From NCBI RefSeq assembly GCF_000384395.1, contig NZ_ARWE01000001.1, positions 1,824,894-1,888,893 of the forward strand: a stretch of DNA of 64,000 bases, written 5' to 3'. The position numbers were made by a program, and so were the translations under genes. The notes beneath the pieces were generated by a model. It ran no database searches and was not told the origin of the DNA. It saw only the letters and a list, made by a program, of their open reading frames with translations. The stretch is from Geopsychrobacter electrodiphilus DSM 16401. Lineage in GTDB: Bacteria > Desulfobacterota > Desulfuromonadia > Desulfuromonadales > Geopsychrobacteraceae. Positions 59,714 to 61,698 of the stretch are shown one piece after another (positions within the stretch are counted from its first letter, which is position 1; every line of letters begins with the position of its first letter).

Positions 59714-60223
59714 TCATCGCCGGCCGTTTAAGAGTAATGGCCCTGTTTTAATGATATGCGGTGTGGATTGAGCACCAACCAGGCGCAATGCCATTGTTTT
59801 AATAATGTGTGGTGCGGATTGAGCACCAACCAACGTTAGCGGGTTTGTCGTTATGGTACCCGACACACCTACAGACTGTGATGGGTCGATTTGCATCTGG
59901 AGCCCGGAGTGTAAGGTGGATGGCGGGACTAGCGGCCCAACCAGGCGCAATGCCCTGGTTTTAATGATGTGCGGTGCGGATTGAGCCCCCACCAGTGTTA
60001 ACGGGGCTGTCGTAATGATCCGCACGCCCGGGATTGGCGGACTGGAAGTCGGTGCCTGTAGCCCGATGTTTAATGGGGCTGACGGAAGCTTCAATTGTTG
60101 TGGGGCCTCTGGCAGCTTTGGCGAAGAGATATTGGATGGATTCCACTTGGCTAACGCCTGCGTACATATCAACACACCCAGAACACAAAAGATGATGATC
60201 AGTCTGCGTTGGGGTTTTATCAT
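59714..60223 (-). CDS. Exported protein with internal repeats
   Basis: 169 aa. A signal peptide (about 8-25, ending ALAK) precedes a Pro/Leu-rich segment and then repeats of PLTLVGAQSAPHIIKT-xALRLVG: the block AQSAPHIIKT or AQSTPHIIKT appears three times and LTLVG/LRLVG five times. At DNA level the repeats are nearly exact (see the repeated CAATGCC and GGAT(T)GAGC words at 59770, 59815, 59950 and 59975 on the plus strand), so they are young or under gene conversion. No family recognised; a surface or secreted structural protein is possible. Upstream gene of a two-gene unit. Confidence 0.6.
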   Translation of the reverse strand: MIKPQRRLIIIFCVLGVLICTQALAKWNPSNISSPKLPEAPQQLKLPSAPLNIGLQAPTSSPPIPGVRIITTAPLTLVGAQSAPHIIKTRALRLVGPLVPPSTLHSGLQMQIDPSQSVGVSGTITTNPLTLVGAQSAPHIIKTMALRLVGAQSTPHIIKTGPLLLNGRR

Positions 60224-60411
60224 TCGATCGCCATTTCAATGGTGGGGAAGATGTTACCTTTTCACTGCGAATATACCCGAACGCTCTGCTGATCGTTCAG
60301 ACTACTGAAGTATAGCGGTCAAGCCTGCCATGTTGCAAACTTGAACGCGATATATGAAGAGAAGCGTTGAAGAAGCTTGAACCCCCTGCAACAGTAAGGC
60401 ATCATAAGCCC

Positions 60412-61698
60412 ATGCCGAAAACAGCCTTTAATGCCATCGAAAACAGTGTCAGCGCCTTCCTCGGCGGGGCTGGAGTCTCTCTGGTCGAACTCGAGAAGCC
60501 GGACGAGTTGCCTGAAGCGCGAGACCGCCGTGAGATCCTGGTCCGTTTAGTGTTCGACAAGGTCGCCTATCTGTTTAAGGCTAACCGCGACGAACTGGCC
60601 TTCACCACCACCGAGATCAGTTTCATTCAGGAGCTGCTGGCGGCCTTCGAAGGGCTGTACGGTGGCTTTTCGGCACAGGGCTATGCGGCGCATTTTCGCA
60701 CCGCCTTATTGACTTCACTCACCGATATTGCCGTAGCACGCTACCTGCGCGGGGATCGCAAAGGGGTGTTCTGGCCGGTGGAGAGTCTGATTCAGCTGCT
60801 GAAAAACCTCTCATATCAGCGCTATGAGGGGACCCCGGCGTCGACCGGTTTCCTGGTCTATCGCTCGCAGCTCGACGATTTTGTCGATTCGCTCAAGACC
60901 TCTCACTACAACTGGTTCGACCTGGGTAAGGCGCGGCAGCGCATCAGCGCCGATTTTTTTCGTAACCCGCTGACCTACCGTTTCGTCGACGGGCTACGGG
61001 CCCTGTTTGTGTGTGATATCCGCATGAACGTCAAAGGGACTATTCAGACCGGTTCGCCGCGCCCACGCAAGTCGATCGAACAGCTGGCCTGGCGCGATAC
61101 CCAGACCCTGCTCGGCAAGGCAGGGGAGGCGGCCTTTGCGATTTTTGTCAACGAGGTCTCGGAGGTCGAGGTCGTCCTCGATGGTGGCCGACTGCTGGTC
61201 TGGCGCAAGGGGGTTTGGGGGGTCTACGATCCTGATATCTTCCGCGAATTTTTCGCCGGCCATTTAGACAAGCGCTCGGTCCATTCCCTGATCGGCTCGA
61301 TCTACTCCCTGTCGAAGTCGCGCCACGGTACGGTGGTGCTGATCGCTGCTGAGGGGACCGATCTGGAGGCCTTGCGCAAGGGCTCGGTCGGCGGTCGTGG
61401 TTCTTTGAGCCGCGCGCTGATCGAACACGTGCGCGGCCGCAAGCTGGGCACCCTGAAACGCACCGGCGAGTTGAGCCGTATCCTCTCCTCGGACGGGATG
61501 ACAGTGATTAATCGCAAGGGGGAGCTGCTCGACACCGGGGTGATCGTCGATACCTCGCAGGTTAAGGGGCTAATCACCGGCGGAGGCCGCACCACCGCCG
61601 CCAGCGCGGCTTCACACTTCGGCCATGTGGTCAAGGTCTCTGAAGACGGACCGGTGGAGCTCTATCGCGCCGGCAAGCGGGTCTATCGTTTCGGCTGA
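60412..61698 (+). CDS. Divergent DisA_N (diadenylate cyclase-like) domain protein
   Basis: 428 aa from ATG 60412; a TTG at 60367 is an alternative. Neither has a strong ribosome site. The N-terminal ~200 residues look like a sensor region. The C-terminal part shows the DAC layout: HGTVVLIAAEG, then SSDGMTVINRKG (about 359), GVIVDTSQVKG, TGGGRTTAASAASHFG (about 385-400), KVSEDGPVELYRAGKRV. In true cyclases this is DGA, then GTRHRTA. Here DGA is DGM and the RHR triad is GRT, so activity is uncertain. I know of sensor-DAC fusions (DACN families) but cannot place this one. Confidence 0.6.
   Translation: MPKTAFNAIENSVSAFLGGAGVSLVELEKPDELPEARDRREILVRLVFDKVAYLFKANRDELAFTTTEISFIQELLAAFEGLYGGFSAQGYAAHFRTALLTSLTDIAVARYLRGDRKGVFWPVESLIQLLKNLSYQRYEGTPASTGFLVYRSQLDDFVDSLKTSHYNWFDLGKARQRISADFFRNPLTYRFVDGLRALFVCDIRMNVKGTIQTGSPRPRKSIEQLAWRDTQTLLGKAGEAAFAIFVNEVSEVEVVLDGGRLLVWRKGVWGVYDPDIFREFFAGHLDKRSVHSLIGSIYSLSKSRHGTVVLIAAEGTDLEALRKGSVGGRGSLSRALIEHVRGRKLGTLKRTGELSRILSSDGMTVINRKGELLDTGVIVDTSQVKGLITGGGRTTAASAASHFGHVVKVSEDGPVELYRAGKRVYRFG

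Follow-up and report, generated by a model that had tools for sequence, protein, structure and literature searches.

The stretch of Geopsychrobacter electrodiphilus DNA that we analysed (64,000 nucleotides, hereafter the window) exhibits an ORF (P0001, 428 amino acids; positions 60412 to 61698, forward strand) whose C-terminal domain is predicted to adopt the diadenylate cyclase (DAC) fold, with a nucleotide pocket altered in the same way throughout its clade. Judged from sequence, P0001 is probably a non-cyclase, nucleotide-binding receptor or regulator built on this fold and not a synthase of c-di-AMP. Its descent as a divergent DAC-fold protein is supported; a working mode as a ligand-gated sensor is what we infer. 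As far as could be found in the libraries and papers searched, a conserved clade with a consistently rewired DAC fold is undescribed: literature on DACN names, inactive DACs and links between DACs and restriction gave nothing on the P0001 clade, most subscription papers being outside this search.

Translation of the ORF starts at an ATG (position 60412), and the stop codon ends at 61698. An alternative in-frame TTG at 60367 would give a protein of 443 aa, but the "MP.." equivalent of position 60412 is the start in nearly all aligned orthologues. The gene stands alone, and its copy number is usually one. Comparison with eight orthologues gives an overall dN/dS of 0.09-0.135, and constraint on the middle region of the protein is no weaker here than on the DAC-like domain. 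The motifs DG[ML], GGGRT[TA]AA and KVS[EQ]DG are common to the P0001 orthologues seen. Given the dN/dS values and this conservation, P0001 is under strong purifying selection and is a working protein. A neighbouring ORF on the reverse strand (window 59714-60223, 169 aa) exhibits internal repeats (..TLVGAQSAPHIIKT.ALRLVG..) and has no Pfam match.

Taken singly, the P0001 sequence provides weak evidence for a DAC domain. Its score against the Pfam DAC profile (PF02457) is 15.7 bits for a cut-off of 27, with an alignment covering residues 297-422 and nearly the whole profile. A sequence search of the PDB returned no meaningful match, an NCBIfam search an unrelated weak match only, and BLASTP no match to the CdaA of the same genome, a relation that needs profiles or structure to be seen. 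DACN-type models, whose presence in our copy of Pfam is uncertain, gave no match at E ≤ 10. The assignment is firm because of the relatives, the profiles and the structure model. Each of the 31 aligned orthologues has a Pfam DAC match at E ≤ 1, the best with an E-value of 8.7e-6, and one orthologue (G073) scores 26.7 bits in a whole-genome search and 27.4 bits, above the cut-off, with its neighbours in frame. An hhalign comparison of the orthologue alignment with canonical DACs (E-value = 5e-5) pairs SDGM with HDGA, RTTAA with RHRAA, and KVSED with VVSEE.

A first structure model, built from 31 close orthologues, had a pLDDT of 65 and was poor in the middle; even there, residues 275-428 matched solved DACs. 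Adding distant relatives (61 relatives in all) gave a final AlphaFold model with a pLDDT of 87.2 and a pTM of 0.87. The solved structures matching this model are CdaS (2FB5, Z = 15.9), DacM (14.4), CdaA-AMP (14.3) and DisA (about 14); overall, the DAC matches have Z-scores of 12-16 and rmsd of 2.4-3.4 over 122-181 residues, against 7.8 or less for the next fold. Foldseek likewise matches the model to DACs (probability 1.00, best E-value = 4.6e-5). With orthologues, profile comparison and predicted structure in agreement, we assign the C-terminal domain to the DAC fold. A fold other than DAC had been set beforehand as the result that would refute the DAC layout proposed in the first-pass annotation; such a fold was looked for, and the one predicted is that of a DAC. 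The layout thus stands, and the extent then given (about 220 C-terminal residues) shrinks to nearer 150, namely residues 275-428 (61234..61695, forward strand, like all P0001 features below).

The remainder of the protein falls into three parts. Residues 1-88 (60412..60675; pLDDT mostly 80-94) are predicted to form an alpha/beta domain resembling several GAF structures (Z = 6.9-7.8), a range that common arrangements or chance can give; no family, GAF included, is matched by sequence in Pfam, and the GAF-like start is to be taken as a lead. Residues 89-239 (60676..61128) form a middle region with Y138-E139-G140. It holds the most conserved 20-residue stretch of the family (residues 121-140), in which E139 is invariant among the 61 relatives. 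Residues 240-274 (61129..61233) comprise predicted beta strands with the invariant G267 and W269, and lead into the DAC-like domain. It had been noted that the N-terminal part is unlike DisA, CdaA or CdaS; this agrees with the missing family match, except that the first 88 residues or so now appear GAF-like.

P0001 carries about 275 N-terminal residues, with their GAF-like start, in addition to what Pfam DAC proteins (CdaA, DisA, CdaS, CdaM) share. Unlike CdaA, it lacks the N-terminal transmembrane domain (Pfam CdaA_N), which the CdaA of the same genome possesses. Unlike DisA, in which an N-terminal DAC domain is followed by a linker and a helix-hairpin-helix, P0001 has its DAC-like domain at the C-terminus. 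The best structural match, B. cereus CdaS (2FB5), extends over 181 residues spanning model positions 64-428 and possibly takes in some helices outside the DAC core, as judged from the model. Its chain is much shorter (204 residues) and has no GAF-like domain; we take it to represent the active CdaS class, with DGA and RHR intact.

The pocket was compared by aligning 40 relatives of the clade, which we name after its KVSxDG motif, with canonical DACs (13 rows for the DG motif, 41 DACs for the Lys position). The features shared with Pfam DAC proteins are the Asp and Gly of the DG motif, the first Arg of RHR, the motif Ser and a GALI-like Gly306, besides the fold itself. In contrast, DGA is replaced by DG[ML], RHR by RTT with a Gly in place of the preceding Thr, and (V/I)SEE by KVSxD, so that P0001 is without the DGA and GTRHR motifs of active diadenylate cyclases. 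The change of DGA to DGM reported earlier is present at D361-G362-M363 (61492..61500). Asp and Gly are kept here in 40/40 clade rows and 13/13 canonical rows, and the third residue is M or L in P0001 orthologues. The GGGRTTA reported earlier is found within GGGRTTAA at residues 390-397, but it does not amount to a loss of the whole GTRHRTA motif: R393 aligns with the first Arg of RHR, so that in G390-T395 (GGGRTT, 61579..61596) the profile alignment indicates one kept Arg and the changes Thr to Gly, His to Thr and Arg to Thr. This first Arg is found in 38 of the 40 clade rows, the others being one Lys and one truncated row. The canonical Thr is replaced in the clade by Gly, rarely by Ala or Lys, and the His occurs in none of the readable rows. 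Several DACs that are canonical in other respects have Ala, Lys or Leu in place of the last Arg of RHR (e.g. GTRHAA); the absence of that Arg is thus not diagnostic, and only the loss of His (and Thr) is specific to the clade. In K408-V-S-E-D-G413 (61633..61650), the counterpart of (V/I)SEE, all 39 readable clade rows keep the motif Ser, have Asp at the position of the metal-binding Glu, and exhibit a Lys two residues before the Ser, a position taken by Val, Thr or Ala in the 41 canonical DACs. With most pocket features near-invariant over 40 relatives, the alignment indicates a pocket that is rewired, not decayed.

The roles of these positions are known from the ATP complex of Listeria monocytogenes CdaA (reviewed in PMC7288161). 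Adenine is contacted by the Leu of GALI and by a main-chain Leu, the Asp of DGA lies on the ribose and Glu on the metal, and the phosphates are bound by Thr, Arg and His of GTRHR, by Ser, a Gly and a main-chain Glu. With RHR replaced by AAA, Mycobacterium tuberculosis DacA no longer bound ATP or made c-di-AMP (PMC3328451), and Bacillus thuringiensis CdaS no longer made c-di-AMP (PMC4568413). The parallel with P0001 is imperfect: all three residues were changed in those mutants, while P0001 keeps the first Arg.

A receptor or regulator is favoured because the phosphate-binding His and Thr are lost, while residues of the ribose, phosphate and metal sites are kept and a new invariant Lys is present. 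P0001 would then be a soluble sensor or regulator, most likely binding a nucleotide or dinucleotide and not making c-di-AMP, in which the DAC-like domain is preceded by a GAF-like module and a conserved middle region. Since strand residues i and i-2 point the same way, Lys408 is expected next to Ser410 in the phosphate site, and may take over a phosphate contact from its place on the same strand, two residues ahead. The pocket may hold a phosphorylated nucleotide, either c-di-AMP from CdaA or another, whose binding would be passed on to the GAF-like and middle parts or to a partner. Against this receptor reading, P0001 has no conserved neighbour pointing to an output: none of its neighbours is conserved across genera, conservation being confined to one genus.

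Of the three options offered in the first-pass annotation, receptor and inactive regulator are those we favour, whereas a cyclase making a different dinucleotide loses ground with the clade-wide absence of the phosphate-binding His and Thr. An active cyclase or transferase of altered chemistry or substrate, in which Lys408 would stand in for the His/Arg of RHR and Asp412 for the metal-binding Glu, appears unlikely in general. D361, R393 and S410 are kept and conservation is very strong; the acidic residue retained at the metal position and the new invariant Lys of the pocket strand could support altered catalysis. However, no readable clade member has either the Thr or the His that bind phosphate in CdaA, and known DACs are killed by replacement of RHR.

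The genome possesses the usual c-di-AMP pathway separately from P0001, with a canonical CdaA (CdaA_N, DGA, GTRHRAA) and a 7TM-HD protein of PgpH type. c-di-AMP is therefore probably made and degraded without P0001. A DAC scoring above the cut-off is found in 112 of 118 relatives, typically one per genome. Several Desulfuromonadales genomes encode additional CdaA-like DACs (L069-L074; about 390-410 aa), most of these proteins with GTRHAA, in which the last Arg of RHR is missing. The weak DAC matches at L075 and L076 correspond to no recognisable DAC-like gene.

P0001 is patchily distributed. It was matched in 27 of the 70 genomes of the order that are at least 95% complete, and its C-terminal profile in 110 of 277 genomes of the class, a count that includes a few sister-family members. 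Other members of the genus are without it, including one with a 90% identical CdaA, whereas copies in other lineages share 87-88% identity with P0001 although the CdaA of these lineages is only 72-78% identical. CdaA is normally conserved at least as well as P0001, and the higher identity of P0001 there thus points to horizontal exchange, which appears to have occurred within the order. Collections of phages and plasmids gave no match to P0001. The genes on either side of P0001 vary within its genus as well.

The P0001 orthologues are homologous over their full length (profile positions 6-423, E-value = 3.3e-18) to a clade of proteins of about 400-470 aa. P0001 thus belongs to a full-length family with a GAF-like N-terminus, a YEG-containing middle and a DAC-like end, covered as such by no Pfam, NCBIfam or PADLOC model. 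A phylogenetic analysis groups P0001 with relatives belonging to a different class of the phylum (SH-aLRT 99) and groups the sister clade of about 400-470 aa (SH-aLRT 99); it places all KVSxDG proteins apart from canonical DACs (SH-aLRT 88), a separation to be read with caution given the long branches.

Several of these relatives are found in or near defence genes. In L146 (6856-8136, reverse strand) the DAC-like gene lies between HsdM and HsdS, followed by HsdR; in L153 (6234-7466, forward) it belongs to an hsdM-hsdS-DAC-SLFN_AlbA-hsdR cluster; in L212 (6367-7632, reverse) it adjoins HsdM. L215 has a sister-clade gene near HsdR, and L216 one near Vsr, a C5 methylase (Dcm) and AIPR. The sister-clade gene of L187 (7971-9251, forward), on a plasmid, is near a patatin/DncV-like/ThiF/Mov34 CBASS, and a more distant one outside the sister clade (L154, 6930-8378, forward) directly follows patatin and CD-NTase genes. 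Like P0001, these proteins exhibit KVSxDG and GxR without His; unlike P0001, they mostly keep DGA, and most of the restriction-modification (RM) clade have motifs of the S[GST]GGRxAA type. Probes for defence genes score at 6 of 13 sister-clade loci, whereas among the 32 loci of P0001 type a single one scores, through a weak ThiF-type match; this contrast is indicative and not a controlled enrichment, the probes being taken from the same defence loci. Six further sister-clade loci of one genus, adjoining rpoB, have no defence-probe match. In that genus (L148:6158-7567, L149, L144, L210, L211, L222) the DAC-like gene keeps a constant place, with a SpoIIE-phosphatase/HATPase gene on one side and rpoB on the other, which gives the sister clade a stable setting outside defence.

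Further observations concern related genes. Plasmid copies are annotated as hypothetical proteins. One sister-clade gene is on an IMG/VR contig (L224:5001-5867) and is possibly prophage-borne. L150:5928-7682 encodes a 584-aa protein with a phosphoribosyltransferase domain and a C-terminal DAC domain, above the Pfam cut-off, in which GGSRKETA replaces GTRHRAA. L151:7312-8883 (reverse) and L152:5925-7565 (forward) encode proteins of about 520-550 aa whose C-terminal DAC-like end has GTRHQA and SMDGP; both adjoin apparent Lon-type protease and small heat-shock genes.

Could P0001 itself be an anti-phage or restriction-linked component acting alone, as the sister clade may in RM and CBASS clusters? 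We consider this improbable, although such a role would be compatible with the receptor reading and the two are not competing alternatives. The contexts of L146, L153, L212, L215, L216, L187 and the distant L154 speak for it, as do the absence from the sister species with a 90% identical CdaA and the high identity across more distant lineages. But the 32 P0001-type loci have no RM or CBASS gene nearby bar the one weak ThiF-type match, PADLOC has no match to P0001, and patchiness by itself does not mean defence. With a patchy, horizontally exchanged distribution and a defence-associated sister clade, an accessory, possibly defence-related role is plausible.

That the DAC-like domain is a structural or dimerisation module binding no nucleotide is decidedly unlikely. 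Pseudoenzymes often turn into scaffolds, part of the substrate site is lost and no complete set of catalytic motifs is present; yet the top-conserved positions of the domain are those of the pocket (D361, G362, G391, R393, K408, S410, D412, G413), which is unexpected if it is unused. That the DAC resemblance arises by chance or from a very generic fold, a view to which the sub-threshold Pfam score and the blank BLASTP comparison with CdaA might lend colour, is hardly credible against an orthologue reaching the cut-off with its neighbours in frame, an hhalign match motif on motif, and Z-scores to solved DACs far above those of the next fold.

The receptor reading may be extended, tentatively and with considerable doubt, to the KVSxDG clade as a whole, as DAC-derived nucleotide receptors gating defence (type I restriction, CBASS) as well as stand-alone responses. 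CARF and SAVED domains are sensors of nucleotide-based immunity, with folds unlike that of DACs; the DAC-like domain would work in a comparable way if its binding of a signal nucleotide gates a response. Synthesis of c-di-AMP by the DAC fold is already well known. If the proposal for the clade is true, a fold that makes c-di-AMP has been turned into a nucleotide reader, tying restriction or abortive defence to a phosphorylated nucleotide, be it c-di-AMP or another. If P0001 binds c-di-AMP or another nucleotide, it would add a class of receptor in bacteria with little-studied c-di-AMP signalling, and its sister clade inside restriction operons would offer a testable link between a nucleotide signal and restriction.
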